From NCBI GenBank assembly GCA_905235855.1, contig CAJONE010000001.1, forward strand, positions 1 to 64,000: DNA of 64,000 nt, in the 5' to 3' direction. The stretch is from an uncultured Bacteroidales bacterium (GTDB taxonomy: Bacteria; Bacteroidota; Bacteroidia; Bacteroidales; P3). Both the position numbers and the translations under genes were made by a program. This document shows, one piece after another, positions 4,808-39,803 of this stretch (its first letter is position 1; each line of letters begins with the position of its first letter). Under the pieces are notes generated by a model. The model saw nothing but the letters and a program-made list of their open reading frames with translations. It made no database searches and was not told the origin of the DNA.

Positions 4808-7800
4808 ATGAAAAGTACATACGGCCTATTCAAGGAGGGTGTGAAAAGAATCACACACTACTACATGCTACTTGTTGATGAAACCAAAAACCAACGCACA
4901 GTAGGAAGCACCAACGAGTGGGTGCTCGACAACTACTACATAATCAGCGAGCAAGAGAAGCTAATGAAGCAAGAGCTTATCGGTTTGGAACGCGGGGGAT
5001 GGAAAATAGAGCGCAAACGGCTGAAAGTGCTGTCCGACCTACTGAAAGCCTACTTGAAGCGATGCCACTGGCAAATTGACAAAAATCTGATGTTCCGCTA
5101 TCTGACGCAGGTGCAGGTTGGGCAGAAAGACTATCTGAACTATCGCGAAGTCTATGCGCTACTACCTTTGATGAAGTGCGAACTGATTGTGGCATTGGGC
5201 GAACTTTGCGCCGAGCTGAAGAGCGACAACGCCCACCACTACAAGGTAACCGAAAAACCCAGCATGGAACGGCTCGACAAAGCCGCCAAACAAAACCTGA
5301 AGATGATGAACATCTTCAACTCGCTGAAGAAGATGACCAAACTGCCGCTGGCCGAACTGATTGAGCGCATAAGCTATTCCGAAAAAATGCTCTGTGCCGA
5401 GAAGTCGGGCATGTACGAGCAGATGTACGACAAGACAAAAGAGGACTACCGCTCAAAAATAGTGCGCAACTGCAAGAAGGCCAAGGTCAAAGAATTCGAC
5501 TATGTGAAAGGGCTCGTAGAACGGGCCGACGCAAAATGCGAGCATGTAGGCTGGGAACTTTTCCCGCCCAAGAAATGGGCCGCCCGCTCAAAGGCCTACG
5601 TGTGGATTGTTACGCTCTGCACCCTGGCCATCGCATCCTGTCTGGCACTGCTTTTTATGCCCTCATGGTGGATGGCTCTGCTCTTCGCTATAGTGTTTGT
5701 TTTGCCGGCAAGCCAGGTGGTAATCGACTTGTTCAACCGCATGCTCTACCGCATCCACAAACCGCGAGGCACTTTCCGGCTGAAATTCAAGGACGGACTT
5801 CTGCCCGAAGAATACGCCACAATGGTGATAATGCCCACCATACTGAAGAATCGGCAGAAGACCGAGCAGCTTCTTGAACAACTGGAAGTATACTACCTGA
5901 GCAACATAAACCGCGGCGAAGGACATTTGGCCAACAACAGCGACACAACAGTATCAGCCCGACAGAACCTGTACTACACACTGATTGGCGATGCGGCTGC
6001 CTACGACAAAGAGAACGCGCCGTGGGACGACGAGGTGGTTCAGGCCGGCATATCGAAAGTGAAAGAGCTTAACGAAAAATATGGTGCACCGATATTCAAC
6101 TTCGTTTACCGTCGCCGAGCCTGGAGTGAGGGTGAAGGTTGCTGGCTCGGCCACGAAAGAAAACGTGGCGCTTTGCTACATTTCAACGATCTGTTGCTGG
6201 GATCGACAAGCGACGAAGAGAAGGCCAAACGGTTTAGATGCGAAACAATAAGTGCTTGGCGAAAAGCGTGGAACACAAGCGGCCAATGGCAGGCCGACGG
6301 TGTCCTGCCGACACAGGGGCAACAAGCAGCCAACCAATTCGACGGCTGCCCTATACAGTTCATCATCACTCTCGACACCGACACAGAGCTGGTGCTCTAT
6401 TCGGCCCAAAAGCTAATCGGCGCGATGGCACATCCGCTGAACCGTGCAAAGCTCAGCGACGACGGCCGCAAAGTGGTGAGCGGTTACGGCATTATGCAGC
6501 CACGGGTGAATGTGGACGTTGAGGTAACCAACAAAAGCCGCTACGCACAGCTGTTCGCCGGGCTTGGCGGACTTGACGTATACACCACGGCATCGTTCGA
6601 ACTGTATCAGGACATCTTCAACGAAGGGTCGTTTTGCGGCAAAGGCATCTACGACCTGCGCGTGTTTCAGAAAGTGTTGAAAGGCACTTTTCCCGAGAAC
6701 CTCATCCTGAGCCATGACCTGATAGAGGGATGTCACATACGTTGCGGCCTGATCAACGATGTGGAGCTGTTCGACGACAACCCGTCAAACTATATTGACG
6801 ATGCCAAACGCCACCATCGCTGGACACGCGGCGACTGGCAAATAAAGGACTGGTTGAAAAACAAGGTTCACAACGAGAAAGGCGAATGCGTGAAAAACCA
6901 GATAAGCACCATAGGGCGATGGAAGATTTTCGACAACCTTCGCCGCAGCCTGATGAATCTGTCGCTACTCGTTTTGATAACCGTGGGTTTCGCCATGAGC
7001 CTGTATGCCGTAGCGGGCGACCGTTCTGACACATTCGCCGACACGCAATCCATGGTTCCCGCCGTATGGCAGTCAGCCGCCTTTGCATTCACGGTGATAG
7101 CCCTGATAGTGGTTTCGCTGCCCATATTGTTTTTCCTGATGGAACAAATGGCGCGACTGCCACATATCGGCAAACGCTACAAATACTATATGACGCTGAT
7201 GCGCGGAATGTGGGTGGTGGTGTGCCGCTCGGTTGTGCAGTTTGCGATAATACCGAAAGAGGCGTGGATGTATACCGATGCAATAGTACGCAGCTGCTAC
7301 CGTATGCGCTTCAGCCATCGCAACCTGCTCAACTGGGTGCCCAGCGACGAGGCCTCGAAAACCACCAAGGGTACACTGGCCGACTACATGGTCAAATTCT
7401 GGTTCAACTATGTATGTGCCGCAGCAATTGCCACCATAGCCTGGTTTTCGGCCTTTGGTGTTCATCCCTCTCCTTTCAGCTGGCTCACAGTGGCCGCTGG
7501 AGCCTTCTGTGTGGTTAGCTGGTGCGGGGCACCATTCCTAATGTACTGGCTCGGCAAGAAGTTGCCTGGCACGAACAAAAGCCTCACGGCAGCCGAGATG
7601 GACGAGGTGAAACAAACCGCAGCTGAAACATGGCACTTCTTCGACACCATGCTGTCCGAAGAAACCAACTGGCTTATACCCGACAACTACCAGCTCAACC
7701 GCGAAAAGAAAACCGACTACAAGACCTCACCCACCAACATAGGCTATTCGCTCACCGCCGTGGTGAGTGCCGCCGAACTGGGTTTCATCTCCCGCAAAGA

Positions 7801-31804: not shown

Positions 31805-33745
31805 ATGAACAACACGAAACCTTTTCTCTTTTTTCTCACAGCAGCTCTGATTTCGATAACGGCCACCTTCGCCCAAAAGCAACCCTACACTTCATCTAAC
31901 AGAAAGGCTGTTGGGCTTTACGAGAAAGGTAAGCAATGCATGGACCGCTCCGACCGGCCCTGTGCCGAAAACCATTTCAAGCAGGCGGCAAAGGCAGACC
32001 CTAAATTTGCCGAGCCAAATATAATGCTAGGCGAGATGTTCGAGGATGCCCATCGCGATTCCATGGCTTGCGTCTATTACCGCGCCGCAGTGCAAGCCAA
32101 CCCGACATTCTACACTATGGCATGGTTACGCATAGGCGAACTGGAACTTCGTCAGCAGCACTATGCAGCCGCTGTTGAAGCCTACACACAGTTTTTGGCC
32201 CTCGACAAGAAAAATCCCGACAAACACGCCGAGGTAGAGAAAAAGATGAAGACCGTGGCGTTCCGCCAACATGCATACGCCAATCCCGTGCCATTCAACC
32301 CACAAAACATGGGTGCAGCAGTGAACACGCCTAACGACGAATACCTGCCGGCACTCACCGCCGACGGCCAGACACTCGTCTTCACACGCCGTTTTCCACG
32401 CACAGGGAAAACAACCGCAAATTCACCGATGGAAGAGGACTTCTACGTTAGCGTGAAAAAAAACGGTGAATGGGGCAAGGCCGTGCGAATGTCGGAGCCG
32501 GTAAACACCTACGACAACGAAGGAGCCCAGTGCATCTCGCAAGACGGGCGTATGATGATTTTCACAGGCTGCAACCGCAAGGACGGCGCCGGAAGATGCG
32601 ACCTCTACATCTGCCACCGCGAAGGCACTCAATGGTCAAAGCCACAAAATTTGGGAATGCCCGTGAATACAGCGGCCTGGGAGGCACAGCCCACTTTCTC
32701 GGTCGACGGAAAAACCCTCTATTTCGTGTGCAACCGCAAAGGAGGTTTGGGTGGTATGGATATATGGAAAAGCGAAATGGTGAACGGAGAATGGACTGAC
32801 CCCATAAACCTCGGCGCTCCGATAAACACTCCCGACGACGAAATGTCGCCATTCATACATTTTGACGACCACACCCTCTATTTTGCCAGTAAAGGGCACA
32901 TCGGTATGGGAGGCTTTGACCTCTTTATGAGCAAACTGCAGGACGACGGCACATGGAGCGAACCCGTCAACGTGGGCTACCCAATCAACACCGAGGGCGA
33001 CGAGTCGAACATGATAGTGAGTGCCGACGGTCGCACAGCCATATACTCGTCAGACCAACCGGGGGGCTACGGCCGCGAAGACTTGTATATGTTTGAGTTG
33101 CCCGAGGAAGTGCGTCCACAAGCTACAACATATATACAGGGCATCGTCTATGACAAGAAAACAAAACAACGTTTGTCGGCAGATTTTGCCATATCAGACC
33201 TTACGACCAAAAGTGACGTTGTGAGTGCCACCTCCGACCCTGTTGACGGCAGTTTCCTACTCACCCTGCCAGGTTTGCACCACTACGCGCTATCGGTTTC
33301 CAAGGAGGGATACCTTTTCTACTCGAAGAACTTTGAGATGACCGCAGCATCAATCGACAACCCCTTCACTTTGGAGGTTCCGCTGGAACCAATTGAGGTT
33401 GGTTCCAGCGTCACACTGAACAATGTGTTTTTCGAGATGGCCAAATGGGATTTGAAAGAAGAATCGACCGTGGAACTCGACAAACTAATTGCACTAATGA
33501 ATGAAAACCCGAATATGCGCGTTCTGCTCGAAGGCCATACGGACAACGTGGGGTCGGATGTGGCAAACCAGAAACTGTCAGAAAACCGTGCCAAGGCAGT
33601 GTATGACTACCTTGTGAAACACGGCGTGGCGGCAAGCAGGTTGCAATATAAAGGGTATGGCGAAACCAAACCGATAGCCGACAACAACACCGAGGAGGGT
33701 CGCGCACAAAACCGCCGCACAGTGTTCACCGTGACGCAAAAATAG
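31805..33745 (+). CDS. PorE-like TPR / beta-propeller / OmpA family protein
   Basis: A 646-residue exported protein close in length and layout to P. gingivalis PorE (T9SS). Signal peptide at 1-24 (ending TATFAQ). TPR at about 35-150, PD40 propeller repeats at about 165-440 (YLPALTADGQTLVFTRRFP, YFVCNRKGGLGGMDIWKSE, YFASKGHIGMGGFDLFMSK, YSSDQPGGYGREDLYMFEL), a carboxypeptidase-regulatory-like domain at about 450-535, and an OmpA domain at about 540-646 with the peptidoglycan-binding residues in LLEGHTDNVGS and LSENRAKAVYDYL. No lipobox is present. It has the same plan as the protein encoded at 18091 but lacks its retropepsin-like tail. It probably anchors an outer-membrane machine to peptidoglycan. 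Confidence 0.85.
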   Translation: MNNTKPFLFFLTAALISITATFAQKQPYTSSNRKAVGLYEKGKQCMDRSDRPCAENHFKQAAKADPKFAEPNIMLGEMFEDAHRDSMACVYYRAAVQANPTFYTMAWLRIGELELRQQHYAAAVEAYTQFLALDKKNPDKHAEVEKKMKTVAFRQHAYANPVPFNPQNMGAAVNTPNDEYLPALTADGQTLVFTRRFPRTGKTTANSPMEEDFYVSVKKNGEWGKAVRMSEPVNTYDNEGAQCISQDGRMMIFTGCNRKDGAGRCDLYICHREGTQWSKPQNLGMPVNTAAWEAQPTFSVDGKTLYFVCNRKGGLGGMDIWKSEMVNGEWTDPINLGAPINTPDDEMSPFIHFDDHTLYFASKGHIGMGGFDLFMSKLQDDGTWSEPVNVGYPINTEGDESNMIVSADGRTAIYSSDQPGGYGREDLYMFELPEEVRPQATTYIQGIVYDKKTKQRLSADFAISDLTTKSDVVSATSDPVDGSFLLTLPGLHHYALSVSKEGYLFYSKNFEMTAASIDNPFTLEVPLEPIEVGSSVTLNNVFFEMAKWDLKEESTVELDKLIALMNENPNMRVLLEGHTDNVGSDVANQKLSENRAKAVYDYLVKHGVAASRLQYKGYGETKPIADNNTEEGRAQNRRTVFTVTQK

Positions 33746-33847
33746 TGGGAGAAATCTATTATCATCAAAATACCGAAGGACAGCATTCTTGTGGCATTTG
33801 CAGGAACGGAGTTGCATAAAAAAGACGATTGGGGGGTATGATATTTA

Positions 33848-33967
33848 TTTACATACATAAAGTACAATAGTTAATGAAACGTTTTTACTTATTCCTGATA
33901 TTCATTGTTCTCAATCTAATATGTGCACTGTCAGGCATATATTTACACGGAAAGTGGAAACCGCGTG
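33848..33967 (+). repeat. Repeat block A, left copy
   Basis: About 120 bases resembling 38131-38250 at roughly four bases in five, from TTTACATACATA through ATGAAACGTTTTT to GTGGAAACCGCGTG. The left copy has one extra A at about 33918 compared with the right copy, which shifts the frame of the encoded signal-peptide segment. Confidence 0.75.
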
Positions 33968-34107
33968 ATGTTTTATGTACGCACCCGTCGCTGTGTCACA
34001 TAAATATCAAGACCATCGACGTGGTTCCGCTGCCGACAGGTAACTATACGGTAAGTCTTGAGGACAATGGTATTGTTCTGGATTCCAAAACCCTTGTGGT
34101 GCAATGA
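33874..34107 (+). pseudogene. Chimeric remnant: signal-peptide start fused to a T9SS tail
   Basis: An open frame of 77 residues starting MKRFYLFLIFIVLNLICALS and ending LPTGNYTVSLEDNG, IVLDSKTLVVQ. The first half is repeat block A and the second is block B, the 3' end of the protease gene at 37.5 kb. There is no cargo domain between them. Relative to the right copy of block A, a one-base insertion near 33918 moves the downstream part out of frame: in the shifted frame it reads YVHCQAYIYTESGNRV, matching YVHSQTYIYTASGNRV of the right copy. I therefore read this as a decayed or recombined T9SS gene rather than a working one, although the frame is open and could make a short secreted peptide. 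Confidence 0.6.
33979..34106 (+). repeat. Repeat block B, left copy (T9SS tail coding)
   Basis: 128 bases nearly identical to 37532-37659, with three differences that I can count: C/T at 34018 (gaccatC/Tgac), G/T near 34099 (cttgtG/Tgt), and G/A in the stop codon (TGA here, TAA there). The near identity shows recent duplication or gene conversion. Confidence 0.9.
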
Positions 34108-34143
34108 TTGTATTATTTATTAAGGGTATCCTTCAAAAATTAA

Positions 34144-34284
34144 ATGTCGAATAATCAACAATATAATCATAATTCAGCGGTATACTTTATAGAAACAACA
34201 ACATTTTTGACCAAGTACAGTGCCACAGGCAAACAGATGCTATTTCGTAAGAAACGGAATAAGGTAACTGAAAGATTAATCTAA
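34144..34284 (+). CDS. Possible 46-residue orphan protein
   Basis: An ATG-to-TAA frame beginning MSNNQQYNHNSAVYFIETTT and containing FLTKYSATGKQMLFRKKR. I do not recognise it. It lies in the AT-rich gap between the chimeric remnant and the first island lipoprotein, so chance is a real explanation. The YSATGK segment is faintly like the YxASGN motif of block A, but this is too short to use. From 34285 to 34496 I see no gene; that stretch includes complementary arms that could form an H-type pseudoknot (34391-34422). Confidence 0.2.
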   Translation: MSNNQQYNHNSAVYFIETTTFLTKYSATGKQMLFRKKRNKVTERLI

Positions 34285-34496
34285 CCCAACATAATGCGAG
34301 GTAAATTTTGTAGAATTGTCCAAAATAACTCCCCAAGACGAGGTTTGCAAAACAATGCTGCACCTCTGTACACTTTGCAAATAGCGAAAAAGCCTGGCGG
34401 AGCGGTTGAAGCAGGCTCTCCGTCATGGCCAGCAGACAAAAATAAGCGAATTTTAGAGCCTACTTTAAGAAGACAATAAAGACAAAGAATAAAAAC

Positions 34497-34862
34497 ATGT
34501 ACAGAAAAATATGTCTAACGTCAATAGTTTTTATGAGTCTACTGGCGTTTTCCAGCTGTGAGAAAGAGCGTTCGATGTATCCTCCGATGGATGTCTCTGG
34601 CAAGTTTGTGATACTTCAGAAGTCAAAGCGGTTTAAATTGTATGGTCATACCGTAAAAGCATATTTATACGAACTGCGGGAGGGGGAATACCTCTCATAC
34701 GAGACTTGCATAACAGGACATATACCATCCGAATTCAGAAGTTACGATACGATTAACATCAAAGCCACAATGATACATGTTGCCCCTGAATTTGAATATT
34801 TCTATATTGACTCAACAAAACCTCCAGCCGTATATAAGTTGGAAAACATTGAAAAAATATAA
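34497..34862 (+). CDS. Hypothetical lipoprotein, first gene of the island
   Basis: A 121-residue predicted lipoprotein. The signal MYRKICLTSIVFMSLLAFSS is followed by Cys (lipobox Phe-Ser-Ser-Cys), then EKERSMYPPMDVSGKFVILQ. No known domain. The mature part looks like a small beta-rich fold (KRFKLYGHTVKAYLYELREG, FEYFYIDSTKPPAVYKLENI). Its stop lies four bases before the ATG of the secreted protease gene, so the two are in one transcript. A second lipoprotein of similar size follows the protease. AT-rich codon use is shared by the three genes and differs from neighbours outside the island. Confidence 0.7.
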   Translation: MYRKICLTSIVFMSLLAFSSCEKERSMYPPMDVSGKFVILQKSKRFKLYGHTVKAYLYELREGEYLSYETCITGHIPSEFRSYDTINIKATMIHVAPEFEYFYIDSTKPPAVYKLENIEKI

Positions 34863-35113
34863 AAACATGAAACATATAACATTGATATCAATAATAACCT
34901 TTGTTATATTAATAACAATTGCTGGAAATATCTCCGCACAAAATGCAAGAGGTTACTATTATGCAGGAGAAAAACAGCATTGGTGGACAGACGACTCTAC
35001 CTCAATGAATATAATAGTTGCTGATACTTCACATCTTGTCTATATAGCACATGCTCTTGAAAGCAACTTCAAAGCGCCAAACGATGAGGTATTATATGAT
35101 GACGAAGATGACA

Positions 35114-35121
35114 ATATATAT
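35114..35121 (+). repeat. (AT)4 tract at the protease frameshift point
   Basis: ATATATAT lies at the end of frame 1. Frame 1 stops at 35125-35127; adding one AT unit here would read through as ...Asn-Ile-Tyr-Met-Ile-Asn-Ser-Val into the protease frame. Confidence 0.6.
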
Positions 35122-37531
35122 GATTAATAGTGTCAACCTTCCAAATGTAAATATGGATTCATTGCTACATGCAGTCAATGTCGATCCTTACGATATCTCG
35201 TTCTATTCATATTCCAAATTACTGGATGGGGTTGACAGTGAATATATTTGGTTAAGAAATGAGATTTTTATCCAGTTTACAGATACATCATTTTTTCTTA
35301 AAAACGTTGTGCCGATTCTGGATAAATATAGAGTCAGAACTTATTATTACGAAGGGGACAACGAATATAGGCTTGTGTGCGATGACGAAGGACTTATGAT
35401 GAGCTTAGCGAATTCACTGTATGGGCAGGATGGTGTAATATACTCAACTCCCGATTTCTATGGCACATTGAGATATGCAACTGCGGATCCGTACTATGGA
35501 CAACAGTGGGGATTGCATAATACGGGTGGCAATGGAGGTGTGGAGCATATAGACATAAAAGCGGAAGAGGCATGGTCGTATATTAGTAGATATGTTGCAT
35601 ATCCACAGAAAAACATAAAGGTAGCAGTGATTGACGATGGTGTAGAACCCCATGTTGATTTGTACAAAGAACACGGTCATTGTATGTTATTGTCAGGATA
35701 TACCGCCAATGGGGTCGGCACGGGGAGACCATTGTCAGATGGGGGACACGGGGAGTGTTGTGCCGGAATAATCGCAGCAATCCACAACAATATAGGGGTT
35801 GCGGGTGTGGCCACTGATTGCTACATTATTCCGATTAGAATATCAAAAAAGAACAAAAGAAACGGAGAAGAAAATCCCTTTTGTTCATCGTATATCGCTC
35901 GAGCGATAAAAAAATCATGGCAGGATTTGGGCGCAGATATTCTAAGTGTATCTTGGGGATTTGTTGAGAGTGATAAGATAACCGGAGCACTTAATACCGC
36001 ATTTATTCTTGGTCGTAACGGGAAAGGATGTCCAATATTTGCTGCAACTGGAAACCGAGGCTATCCATATGTCTCTTACCCAGCATCATTACCGAACGTC
36101 GTGGCAGTGGGAGCAATTGATAGGTGTGGCAACAGAATGGGAGATACTCCACCAGTTGCAAATGACCCTTGCCTACCAAACGCAGGTAGCAGTTTTGGGG
36201 CAGGACTTGGCGTTGTTGCTCCAGGGTTAGCTATTTATACAATAGATAGGGAAGGAGCTTACGGATTTAGTGGGAGTGATTATTATAGTTTTAGTGGTAC
36301 GTCTGCCACTTGCCCGCATATTTCTGGTATTGCGGCGCTGATGTTATTGGCGAGACCGGGGCTAAGCAGTTTTGAGGTGGATTCTATTATTGAAAAATCA
36401 GCTGAAAAGATACGAACCGACAGATATGCATACAATGTGAATGGAGCCAATGGTTTTTGGAGCTATGAATTAGGATACGGATTAGCAAATGCGGAAGAAG
36501 CTGTAAGACAAGCCGTTTGTGGTAATGCCGACTTTTATATTCGCGATAATGAATATCAGTCATCATTATCTTATTGCTCAAACCAGATATTTTATAATAA
36601 CTGGCAATGTGCATTTCTTGCTCGTGTTGAAGAAGGTCGTGAGATTATAGGTGAAGATGAAACGGATTACAATATCCGTGAGTTTGTTTCCCGTAACAAC
36701 AATGTGGCGATGAAGACCTACAACATTTTGCAGGAAAACATCAGAGACAACGTTGTGGCAGTTGACATGAGGCAAAACCGAGGTGACGGTATAGTGCGTA
36801 TTGCCTACAACTCCGCATCGAACGGTAGCGGAACGCATATCAGCGATGTAGCTAACGTATATTTGCAATTTGACTCCAGCATGCTCGCCGCTTGGCCTCG
36901 GGCGACAAGACATATAACGGTGTGTAGACAGGTGAACGACAGTGTGTTTGTGATTACAGACACAACCGCAACCTTCGACGGATTCCTGCTGGATACGGCA
37001 GAGACATACTTTATATCATCCTACGTTCGGTACCGCATACCACAGGCCGACAGCACGGAGCATCGGTTTTCGCTGAACTTTAGCATCGTGGATGGGGACA
37101 GCGTGTTCGCGGACGGGGACATAGACTATACCGTCATGTATGACGAGGCCGCCTATTTCAATGTCACCGCATACGAGGACATGACCGTGATAGCAGGGGA
37201 AACTTTTGAACTTTCGGCGGAGGCGGATGCTACAGATACAACCTTTGAATGGTACAATATGCAGGATATCTTGATTGGCGCTGGAGATCATATCTCTTTG
37301 AGTACAACAACGACACGGCAGTATTATGTACGCGGTTATTCTCCGTCCGACAACACCGTGGGTTACGACACCGTTACGGTTACCGTCAAGCACGGTATAA
37401 TCACAAAAATCACTCCAAATCCAGCCTACAATCAGGTGCTTGTGAAATATACCCTTGCCGATGATGTTACCAATCCTACAATATCGCTTAGAAACAGTTA
37501 TGGAATGGTGGTATACAGTGCCCCTGTCGGC

Positions 37532-37659
37532 ACGCACCCGTCGCTGTGTCACATAAATATCAAGACCATTGACGTGGTTCCGCTGCCGACAGGTAACTAT
37601 ACGGTAAGTCTTGAGGACAATGGTATTGTTCTGGATTCCAAAACCCTTGTTGTGCAATA
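37532..37659 (+). repeat. Repeat block B, right copy (end of the protease gene)
   Basis: The 3' end of the S8 protease gene, encoding the last strands of the T9SS sorting domain. Nearly identical to 33979-34106. This copy is in its natural context, continuous with the rest of the sorting domain, so it is the likely source of the left copy. Confidence 0.9.
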
Positions 37660-37691
37660 AACATATTATTCACCTTAAATATGGTACTATC

Positions 37692-38153
37692 ATGAAACCG
37701 AAGATTCTTTTTTTGGCAATTGCATTGTTTGGAATGCTTGTTGTCGGATGTGAAGATGAACCTCATGTTACAGACTCGTGTGATACTGTTCCTGGTATAG
37801 ATGACCCAACGGTTAAGTCCGTATGGGCGACCTCGGTTCCTGATTATTCCATAAAATTTACAGTATTGGACAGCAACTGGGTGCATTGCGATGTACACAA
37901 CGAGTCGGACTATACGTTTTCCTTCTTGGACAATTGCGATTACAAATATGAGTGGTATGACGGAAGCGACGATGCAATTTTAATACGTTTACAAAAGGAT
38001 GGAGTGGGTGTCTTGACAGATATATGCTGTAATGAAATCTATATCTTAGATTGGATTTCACAAGACAGTGTTGTTTTGTCATTTGGTGGAACTGTTATGG
38101 ATGAGGCATGTGAATGGTGTGTGTTCAATTTTTACTTACATAGAATACAATAG
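37692..38153 (+). CDS. Hypothetical lipoprotein, last intact gene of the island
   Basis: A 153-residue predicted lipoprotein. I use the ATG at 37692 because it starts the signal MKPKILFLAIALFGMLVVG followed by the lipobox Cys; the open frame upstream overlaps the protease gene. The mature protein has paired cysteines (HVTDSCDTVPG, LDNCDYKYEW, DICCNEIYIL, DEACEWCVFNFYL) and looks beta-rich, without a known domain. It follows the protease stop by 31 bases. Its last codons (FYLHRIQ) lie inside repeat block A, so block A begins within this gene. Confidence 0.65.
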   Translation: MKPKILFLAIALFGMLVVGCEDEPHVTDSCDTVPGIDDPTVKSVWATSVPDYSIKFTVLDSNWVHCDVHNESDYTFSFLDNCDYKYEWYDGSDDAILIRLQKDGVGVLTDICCNEIYILDWISQDSVVLSFGGTVMDEACEWCVFNFYLHRIQ

Positions 38154-38250
38154 CCGATGAAACGTTTTTGCCAATTCTTGATATTCAGTGTTCTCAATCT
38201 ATATGTACACTCTCAGACGTATATATACACAGCGAGTGGCAACCGCGTGC
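38131..38250 (+). repeat. Repeat block A, right copy
   Basis: Matches 33848-33967 at roughly four bases in five. It begins within the 3' end of the lipoprotein gene and covers the start of the small 53-residue frame. Confidence 0.75.
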
Positions 38251-38318
38251 TACTGGGAAAGGAGGATAGACATAATGTAACAATTACTCAATTCAAGGTT
38301 TCCCAAATCACTTTCTAA
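38157..38318 (+). pseudogene. Truncated secreted protein with signal peptide and SGNR motif
   Basis: A 53-residue frame: signal peptide MKRFCQFLIFSVLNLYVHS with cleavage before QTYIYTASGNRVLLGKE, then DRHNVTITQFKVSQITF and stop. Small Bacteroidales T9SS proteins often start with a signal peptide followed directly by a 'YxYDxSGNR' (Rhs-like) motif and end in a sorting domain; here the sorting domain is missing. The stop lies 22 bases before the sirtuin gene. I read it as a truncated member of that family, and as the counterpart of the left chimera, where the same start is joined to a sorting tail. Confidence 0.5.
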
Positions 38319-38340
38319 ATATATAAACATCTACTGAGCC

Positions 38341-39021
38341 ATGAAGAAAGTAGTAATCCTTACCGGGGCCGGCATAAGTGCCGAGAGCGGCATCAAGACT
38401 TTCCGCGACAGCGACGGCTTATGGGAAAATTATCGCGTTGAGGATGTGGCCACCCACGAGGCCTATCTGCGCAACCCGCAACTTGTGCTCGACTTCTACA
38501 ATGCACGCCGTCGCGAAGTGTTCAAAGCCAAACCCAACGAGGCACACCGACAACTGGTAAGGCTCGAGGAGAAGTATGACGTGCGAATAATCACCCAAAA
38601 CATCGACAACCTGCACGAACAGGCAGGGTCGACAAACGTGCTGCACCTGCATGGCGAACTGACAAAAGCCCGAAGCGACCGCAACGAGAATCTGATAATC
38701 GACATCGGAGAACAGGATATCCATCTCGGCGACAAGGCTCCCGACGGAGCTCAGCTGCGTCCGCACATAGTGTGGTTTGGCGAAGCAGTGCCAAACATCG
38801 AGCCAGCCGCTAAATTATGCGAAGAGGCCGACTTCTTCGTAGTCATCGGCACATCGATGAATGTATATCCCGCAGCCGGCCTAATACACTATGTGCCACA
38901 AACATCACCCTGCTGGCTCGTCGACCCTAAGGCAGTACCTATAAGCCGGACAATAAAAATAATTCAGGAGAAAGCCGGTACAGGTGTGAAACGGGTAGTT
39001 GACGAACTGTTGTCACTATAA
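38341..39021 (+). CDS. cobB: Zinc-site-less sirtuin, NAD-dependent protein deacylase
   Basis: A 226-residue sirtuin. GAGISAESGIKTFRDSDGLW (9-28) binds NAD, QNIDNLHEQAG (about 88-98) and the catalytic His in HLHGEL follow, and GTSMNVYPAAGLIHYVP near 178 closes the NAD site. Tyr53 and Arg56 in FYNARR match the Tyr-x-x-Arg pair that selects succinyl/malonyl-lysine in SIRT5/CobB. The four zinc-binding cysteines are absent: the segment after HGEL (TKARSDRNENLIIDIGEQ) has no Cys, and only two Cys occur in the whole protein. Some Bacteroidetes sirtuins show this too. It starts 22 bases after the island and has normal composition. Confidence 0.9.
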   Translation: MKKVVILTGAGISAESGIKTFRDSDGLWENYRVEDVATHEAYLRNPQLVLDFYNARRREVFKAKPNEAHRQLVRLEEKYDVRIITQNIDNLHEQAGSTNVLHLHGELTKARSDRNENLIIDIGEQDIHLGDKAPDGAQLRPHIVWFGEAVPNIEPAAKLCEEADFFVVIGTSMNVYPAAGLIHYVPQTSPCWLVDPKAVPISRTIKIIQEKAGTGVKRVVDELLSL

Positions 39022-39092: not shown

Positions 39093-39803
39093 ATGAAAAA
39101 AACATTATCATTGATTGGATTAATCGCGATAGCGATGGTGGCCAACGCACAATTTACGCTGACTTACGACGGAAACCCAATTCCCGGTGAAGGACTCGAG
39201 CTGAGTACATCAAGCTGCGGCTCCGCTGTGGAAGAGGATGCCATTTTGGACATGACACTGACCAACACTTCCGACGCCCAGACCAAATGGGATATAATAA
39301 CCGAAGCCCCTGGCGGTAATACCTTCCGCGTGTCGGCAGTGTGTGCGGGTATAAGCTGCAGACCGGGTACGGAAAATTCCGCAACGCTTGCAGCCGGTGC
39401 AAACACCCTCATCTCGATTCATTTCGCCATTCCGACTGGAACCACTAACAACAAAACCGAAAACTTCACCTTCAGGCTGCACAATGTGACAAACGACGCA
39501 GACGACCTCTCATTCAACATATCACTGACCTATAGCAGCAATGGCATCGAGGTTGCCGGCATCGAAAAAATATCCAACGCCTACCCCAACCCTGCAGTGT
39601 CGAACGTGACCATAGACTTCGCTGTTGAAGGCAGTGCACAGCTGGTGCTGAACGACATCACAGGCCGTGAGGTTATGCAGCAAACTGTTTCAGGCAACGG
39701 CTCCATAGTCCTCAACGTGGAGAGTCTCCACAAAGGAGTATACCTCTACGGTATCCGGCAAGGCAACCGGCAATACGCCATGAAAAAACTGGTGGTTAAA
39801 TAA
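39093..39803 (+). CDS. Secreted protein with T9SS type A sorting domain
   Basis: A 236-residue T9SS cargo protein. Signal peptide MKKTLSLIGLIAIAMVANA, cleaved before QFTLTYDG. The middle (about 25-150) is one beta-sandwich-like domain with three Cys (TSSCGS, AVCAGISC) that I do not recognise. The last 80 residues are a full type A sorting domain: ISNAYPNPAVSNVTIDFAV (the PNP motif), LVLNDITGREVMQQTVSGNG and LHKGVYLYGIRQGNRQ, then MKKLVVK. It would be exported by Sec, passed through the T9SS, and released or attached to A-LPS. Stands alone between the sirtuin and flavodoxin genes. Confidence 0.8.
   Translation: MKKTLSLIGLIAIAMVANAQFTLTYDGNPIPGEGLELSTSSCGSAVEEDAILDMTLTNTSDAQTKWDIITEAPGGNTFRVSAVCAGISCRPGTENSATLAAGANTLISIHFAIPTGTTNNKTENFTFRLHNVTNDADDLSFNISLTYSSNGIEVAGIEKISNAYPNPAVSNVTIDFAVEGSAQLVLNDITGREVMQQTVSGNGSIVLNVESLHKGVYLYGIRQGNRQYAMKKLVVK

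Follow-up and report, generated by a model that had tools for sequence, protein, structure and literature searches.

A probable decayed array of lipoprotein–protease gene pairs with a common C-terminal module in an uncultured Bacteroidales genome

The region between ompA and sir2

The window analysed here is a stretch of 64,000 nucleotides (positions 1 to 64,000 of contig CAJONE010000001.1, GenBank assembly GCA_905235855.1) from an uncultured Bacteroidales bacterium. Between an OmpA/PD40 protein gene (ompA) and a sir2 gene it contains a segment, from 33746 to about 38320, that includes two small lipoprotein genes, a subtilase gene divided between two reading frames, fragments of further genes and two direct-repeat families, here named blocks A and B. 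This segment is likely to be a decayed array of lipoprotein–protease pairs with a common C-terminal module of Ig-like and type IX secretion system (T9SS) type, organised like the KLIKK proteases of Tannerella forsythia and the potempins. Its unit structure was established by comparison with a complete unit on a second contig of the same genome, C9. The features, with the open reading frames (ORFs) and the insertion sequence (IS) discussed below, are as follows; the assignment to units is our best reading.

31805..33745, + strand: left flank, OmpA/PD40 protein gene (ompA); Pfam PD40 and OmpA; directly before sir2 in relatives
33746..33873, + strand: putative unit 1, decayed remains of the 3' end of a lip2-type lipoprotein gene, within which block A begins; alignments with C9 lip2 and window lip2
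33874..33975, + strand: putative unit 1, remainder of block A, corresponding to the 5' end of a C9-type subtilase gene but carrying a 1-nt insertion; alignment
33979..34107, + strand: putative unit 1, block B copy, subtilase gene 3' end; 3/129 differences from 37532–37660
33874..34107, + strand: 77-aa ORF spanning the A–B junction, probably debris; ORF list, no Pfam match
34125..34464, + strand: IS5-type remnant, lacking about 1 kb of the interior and flanked on either side by TTAAG; matches both ends of relatives' elements with a DDE_Tnp_1/DUF772 transposase
34497..34862, + strand: putative unit 2, lip1, 121-aa lipoprotein gene; lipobox pattern, 86–90% DNA relatives in genomes G065 and G014
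34867..35127, + strand: putative unit 2, signal-peptide end of the subtilase, in a frame different from the main ORF; ORF list, alignment
35051..37660, + strand: putative unit 2, subtilase main ORF, 869 aa, Peptidase_S8 at residues 187–477; PF00082, E = 1e-34
36605..37660, + strand: C-terminal module common with C9 (Ig-like plus sorting tail); DNA 75% identical over 36610–37661, protein 76%
37532..37660, + strand: block B in place, the last 43 subtilase codons; repeat comparison
37692..38153, + strand: putative unit 3, lip2, 153-aa lipoprotein gene; 62% identical to the C9 lipoprotein
38131, + strand: start of the right copy of block A, inside lip2; repeat comparison
38157..38318, + strand: putative unit 3, C9-type subtilase truncated to a 5' stub, with a 53-aa ORF that is probably debris; DNA similarity to C9 over 37821–38304
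38341..39021, + strand: right flank, sir2 gene; PF02146, E = 2.5e-43

Most of the segment has a GC content of 0.37–0.40, with 0.48 in the C-terminal module and 0.51–0.53 in the flanks.

Direct repeats and the complete unit on C9

Comparison of the region with itself placed both repeat families, far above chance, where an earlier interpretation made from the letters and ORFs alone (the sequence-only reading) had seen them, and in the same order, A–B on the left and B then A on the right. The copies of block B (33979–34117 and 37532–37670) share 95.7% identity over 139 nt (E = 1e-60, six differences). Up to and including the stop codon they differ at just the three bases previously counted (3/129), two of them synonymous and the third TGA/TAA. 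The copies of block A (33848–33967 and 38131–38249) are 82.5% identical over 120 nt (E = 1e-28); at 21/120 differences, close to the one base in five reported earlier, they are significantly more diverged than the B pair (Fisher p = 5e-5).

The second locus, on C9, consists of a 161-aa lipoprotein gene followed after 3 nt by an intact 1000-aa S8 subtilase ORF, the product of which has an S8 domain and a match to PF18962 (Por_Secre_tail) that exceeds the cut-off (29.7 versus 27). Judged by eye, its signal-like start is in frame with the C-terminal tail. Block A matches the 3' end of the C9 lipoprotein gene together with the 5' end of the C9 subtilase gene, and block B matches the 3' end of the latter. 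Because C9 shows A and B as the two ends of one unit, the left A–B stretch is best interpreted as a unit that lacks the protease body: the 3' end of a lipoprotein gene and the 5' end of a subtilase gene, then, across a gap in which C9 has about 2.8 kb of gene, a subtilase 3' end. The right copy of A is best read as part of a truncated unit, with an intact lipoprotein gene and then a subtilase 5' stub that aligns with C9 up to 38304, after which comes sir2. On the left, homology to the lipoprotein gene reaches back to 33746, the first base after the ompA stop codon. In local alignment this stretch scores 24 with the C9 lipoprotein gene, where 500 shuffles gave 16 at best; with the window's own lipoprotein gene it scores 17, the same as the best shuffle and not beyond chance.

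The descriptions given earlier to the two blocks hold in part. Block A, described as a signal-peptide start with an SGNR motif, does contain the subtilase signal start, but it opens with the end of a lipoprotein gene and is therefore not self-contained. An SGNR hydrolase was considered and rejected, as neither A ORF has a Pfam match and the letters align with subtilase N-termini. By alignment they correspond to the mature N-terminus of the subtilase, and in the left copy, where a 1-nt insertion precedes them, they share a frame with neither the signal peptide nor the tail. Block B, described as a T9SS sorting tail, belongs to the tail of the subtilase but makes up only its last 43 residues, about half of the PF18962-matched stretch; it does end the protease gene, as had been proposed, but that gene is split between two frames.

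The sequence-only reading had seen in A and B freely moving modules, and in the left A–B a ready T9SS address without cargo. As the C9 unit accounts for both blocks, we have set free modules aside. That signal-peptide and tail blocks recombine on their own, with the left A–B awaiting or releasing cargo, appears distinctly unlikely, even though the tail looks exchanged, one C-terminal module carries S8 or M4 proteases (see below) and an open 77-aa ORF connects signal peptide and tail. A review states that the last 22 residues of one C-terminal domain (CTD) suffice for export of green fluorescent protein (PMC10202324), and given this a small exported product of the 77-aa ORF may exist. However, in C9 the two blocks form the ends of a single gene unit, the left copy of A carries lipoprotein gene 3' sequence, and its mature part is out of frame.

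An assembly error, in which similar paralogues were wrongly joined to create the A–B fusion, the frame split or the whole segment, is quite improbable. The genome (2.25 Mb) is in 133 contigs, and the report on the KLIKK loci notes that their database sequence held false ORFs and wrong N-termini (PMC4404884), which is therefore a warning for the sequence studied here. Against this, the B copies differ at six of 139 positions and the segment is about 75% identical to C9 at the DNA level throughout, so no long identical stretch that could have caused a false join was seen. The assembled sequence, to which this inspection was confined, gave no sign of misassembly.

A 10-mer at the A–B junction (TTATGTACGC, at 33973) is also present at 37324; a short-homology junction was considered and dropped, as a 10-mer match is not rare enough. 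No match to the A–B stretch was found in a plasmid collection.

Gain of the island

When sir2 was used to search 99 genomes of the genus, 89 matched, and 20 loci were fetched from the 30 best matches. A match to ompA was present upstream of sir2 in 19 of the 20 (none was found in L063), and the ends of the ompA and sir2 matches are 19–182 bp apart in 18 and 453 bp apart in one. No island protein was found in any of the 20 stretches, which include the nearest relatives by sir2 identity, G074 (91%), G065 (89%) and G014 (88%). In a DNA search of 120 genomes with the island (two candidates scored per genome), 20 matched including its own, and in the remaining 19 the matches were confined to the IS stretch, lip1 or lip2; the protease region had no match outside its own genome. 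Proteins related to lip2 were found in three of the 120 genomes, again including its own. From these comparisons we conclude that the stretch from 33746 to about 38320 was gained and forms an island of low GC content. An ancestral island lost by the relatives is very improbable; the comparison is one of presence or absence only, and could to that extent accommodate loss, but the site is without the island in 20 of 20 relatives and the GC content is low against the flanks. A fixed ancestral tandem in all relatives, named in the sequence-only reading as a finding that would overturn it, did not appear (arrangement present in 0/20). The C9 unit is likewise missing upstream of xerC in all three nearest relatives.

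Genes upstream of the C9 unit (L152 and L011, 1–4000) include one that looks helicase-like by eye, one with a DndB domain and one that matches HEPN weakly; this region is perhaps accessory or defence-like.

The segment 34125–34464 matches the two ends of elements found in many relatives, several of the matches lying near contig ends. Between these ends, G017 and G028 have a gene encoding DDE_Tnp_1 and DUF772 domains, a pair that we take to indicate an IS5-type element. The window copy joins the start and the end of the transposase gene, retains the GGTA...TAC(T) ends and has TTAAG directly beside both, while the intact copy in G017 is flanked by a 4-bp duplication, TGAT. By this comparison the window copy is an internally deleted relic, and it was overlooked when the sequence-only reading stated that no transposase was visible. 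No transposase match was found in its own genome or in G014, G065 and G074, with G017 and G028 matched as positive controls. Its presence inside the island may have promoted rearrangement. Another internally deleted copy of the same element, with its ends nearly adjacent, was seen in another species (L127, G021:C40, 2975–3267).

A mosaic protease

The window subtilase and the C9 subtilase are only 33% identical in the catalytic part and 76% identical across the final 363 residues. Extended DNA similarity starts at 36610, and the catalytic part otherwise has a single 59-nt match. At fourfold sites the two genes agree at 13/33, 15/40 and 36/58 positions in successive thirds of the common part, a division of our own choosing, and agreement is higher in the last 114 aligned codons (36/58) than in the preceding 231 (28/73; p = 0.009). 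This is as expected if the tail was exchanged more recently than the rest of the common part. The left and right copies of B are also more alike than the window tail and the C9 tail. On this evidence the window protease is a mosaic and tail reuse between paralogues is supported; copying may have taken place either by gene conversion or by duplication and then deletion. The earlier proposal that sorting tails are passed between genes and come to serve different cargo is borne out by the near-identical B copies, by the bias of fourfold agreement to the tail and by the presence of S8 or M4 cargo on one module. The repeats themselves are thus confirmed, and the interpretation first placed on them is supported in part, for tail reuse and not for shuffled cassettes.

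The window subtilase is the one near-complete protease of the island. As its signal ORF and its main ORF are in different frames, it has no Sec signal peptide in frame with the CTD and is probably not exported as it stands. A related S8 protease in G017 (L079, G017:C91, 3279–6312) is also broken into several ORFs near its N-terminus.

The module, its cargo and neighbouring lipoprotein genes

When the last 363 residues were used as a protein query, seven of 99 genomes matched at E 1e-8, including the window's own. The cargo is an S8 protease in the window, in C9 and in G017 and G001, and a thermolysin-type M4 protease in G010, G021 and G022, with the module alignable. The search of related genomes for other cargo that the sequence-only reading had suggested found the same C-terminal module on S8 or M4 proteases. 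The C-terminus is KTLVVQ in the window and C9, and the other six aligned sequences end in KTLIVN, KTLIVY (two), KTLIVR, KALVVH and RTLVVQ. A single-protein scan found no relative of the module in named genomes. Among Protein Data Bank (PDB) sequences, the module profile matched a mirolase chain best (8qb1, E = 0.0078), a match that by itself is weak. The genome encodes SprA (TIGR04189, 2384.6 bits against a cut-off of 200), which matched in none of 14 control genomes.

A small ORF with a lipobox, recognised by a pattern of our own, ends no more than 10 nt upstream of the protease start at six of 11 loci, compared with one of 109 control genes (Fisher p = 9e-7). At two more loci a lipobox ORF lies 98 and 319 nt upstream, and the remaining three are without a convincing one. 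These 11 are the loci with upstream sequence among 12 protease loci (G022 has only 153 nt upstream). Two others were omitted, G031:C2, where the protein starts at the contig edge, and G000:C28, a distant S8 match; G036 and G037 were included through the catalytic rather than the C-terminal part, and G037 is a genome from a different family of the same taxonomic order. The controls were 109 further ORFs, each 300 aa or longer, from 27 relatives' loci, with a gap of −10 to 20 nt allowed. The two lipoproteins linked to M4 proteases are related to each other (E = 1e-12), and some of those linked to S8 proteases are weakly related (E = 6e-5 and 1e-4).

Comparison with known systems

In T. forsythia the KLIKK proteases, of which mirolase is one, are reported to belong to several protease families and to carry one C-terminal domain; each is preceded by a lipoprotein ORF of 360–550 bp, these ORFs being mutually dissimilar, and the loci are absent in a close relative (PMC4404884). 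These lipoproteins, the potempins, are described as specific inhibitors (PMC7296668). The island and its relatives resemble this arrangement in having proteases of different catalytic families with one C-terminal extension ending in a T9SS-type domain, a small lipoprotein ORF before the protease at a part of the loci (within 10 nt at six of 11), pseudogenes in the cluster and absence from close relatives. They differ in that the tail ends in KTLVVQ rather than KLIKK, that the catalytic families are S8 and M4, and that the modules are 22–77% identical to the window copy, whereas KLIKK modules are described as nearly identical. Unlike potempins, some of the lipoproteins here are mutually related, and an inhibitor role for them is putative. 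Lacking the KLIKK ending, the window protease was not classed as a KLIKK protease, though by analogy it looks as if it works like one.

T9SS cargo with a type A CTD (PF18962/TIGR04183) shares the C-terminal Ig-like tail, and SprA is present in this genome; the C9 copy passes PF18962, but the window copy is below the family cut-offs. Modular rearrangement among T9SS-exported proteases and adhesins is also described for the gingipains and adhesins of Porphyromonas gingivalis, but there it is strain variation of working genes, and here paralogues and remnants lie in one genome (PMC5266723). In Bacteroides fragilis, small genes for the putative inhibitors Bfi are contiguous with secreted C10 protease genes. 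Two of three Bfi have lipoprotein signals, and two of the C10 protease genes are on mobile elements, but these are cysteine proteases for which the available part of the report mentions no common T9SS tail (PMC2873492).

Proposed organisation and its alternatives

On our reading, the island would hold at least three units, each a small lipoprotein gene and then a secreted protease gene with the common C-terminal module. Unit 1 would have lost most of the lipoprotein gene and the protease body, unit 2 would be lip1 with the frame-split mosaic subtilase, and unit 3 would be lip2 with a 5' protease stub. In intact members, of which the C9 pair is one, the protease would leave the cell through Sec and the type IX system and act in the surroundings, and the lipoprotein would be a cognate inhibitor or partner that shields the producer, as potempins are for KLIKK proteases. 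As SprA is encoded in the genome, the C9 pair most likely exports its subtilase through the type IX system, with the lipoprotein restraining or escorting it. Exchange or copying among common 3' ends would keep tails alike while catalytic domains differ, and loss of unit bodies would leave A and B as stubs; the order of these events, like export and inhibition, is what we infer from the comparisons.

Several observations weigh against this reading. The similarity of the tails may partly reflect constraint near the end of the protein, and the window protease is below the family cut-offs for PF18962 (20.1 versus 27) and TIGR04183 (13.8 versus 23). A structure model of the module (mean pLDDT 75.3) gave generic Ig-like matches only, with TM scores of about 0.2 among the 50 matches listed. 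Five of 11 protease loci have no lipoprotein gene as close as 10 nt upstream. In G014 and G065, lip1 and lip2 have relatives that adjoin no protease, those of lip1 behind BspA-type leucine-rich repeat (LRR) proteins. Pairing is therefore not obligatory. For lip1 and lip2 neither a Pfam family nor a convincing relative of solved structure was found, and the lip2 model was unusable (mean pLDDT 30.3).

The orphan relatives also favour the possibility that the lipoproteins have nothing to do with protease control but are, for example, surface antigens or adhesins, and that the neighbourhood reflects co-transcribed surface genes. We treat this as a serious if somewhat doubtful alternative, given the contrast between protease loci and control genes in the frequency of an adjacent lipobox ORF and the relatedness of the two M4-linked lipoproteins.

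A broader scheme, an open system of lipoprotein–protease pairs in the genus, is unlikely. In it, the 3' end of one protease gene would overwrite those of its neighbours, so that new S8 or M4 domains gain a working T9SS tail, and the lipoproteins would be specific inhibitors, kept as orphan immunity genes by sister species in which the protease is missing.

Lipoprotein–protease pairs with one T9SS tail have been described for T. forsythia (PMC4404884, PMC7296668, in the parts available), and a comparable arrangement in this uncultured genus, which is probably from the rumen and in which one module serves two unrelated protease families, suggests that the theme is more widespread. With a complete unit, a mosaic and stubs of two kinds in one genome, and empty sites in relatives, the spread of secretion tails between proteases can be tested.

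Other observations

No structured RNA was identified: 33500–38500 has no Rfam match up to E = 1, and 34108–34496, which is the IS remnant, folds no better than shuffles (z = −0.86). A row of small genes that includes two lip1-like lipoprotein genes, with no protease, lies behind a BspA-type LRR protein with a T9SS tail in G014 (L117, G014:C31, 458–2270). In G065 (L119, G065:C1) a 36-nt direct repeat, at 4903–4938 and within 5468–5540, flanks a lone lip2 gene; one copy is present upstream of lip2 on C9 and more are in G074 and on another G065 contig. A mobile repeat around lip2 was considered and set aside: the 25-nt core (up to three mismatches) occurs once in the window's own genome, on C9, while G065 has three occurrences, G074 has two and four other genomes have none. 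Directly after sir2, at 39093–39803, is a gene for a 236-aa protein with a strong Por_Secre_tail match, and a counterpart 47–56% identical to it is found at the same place in the three nearest relatives.

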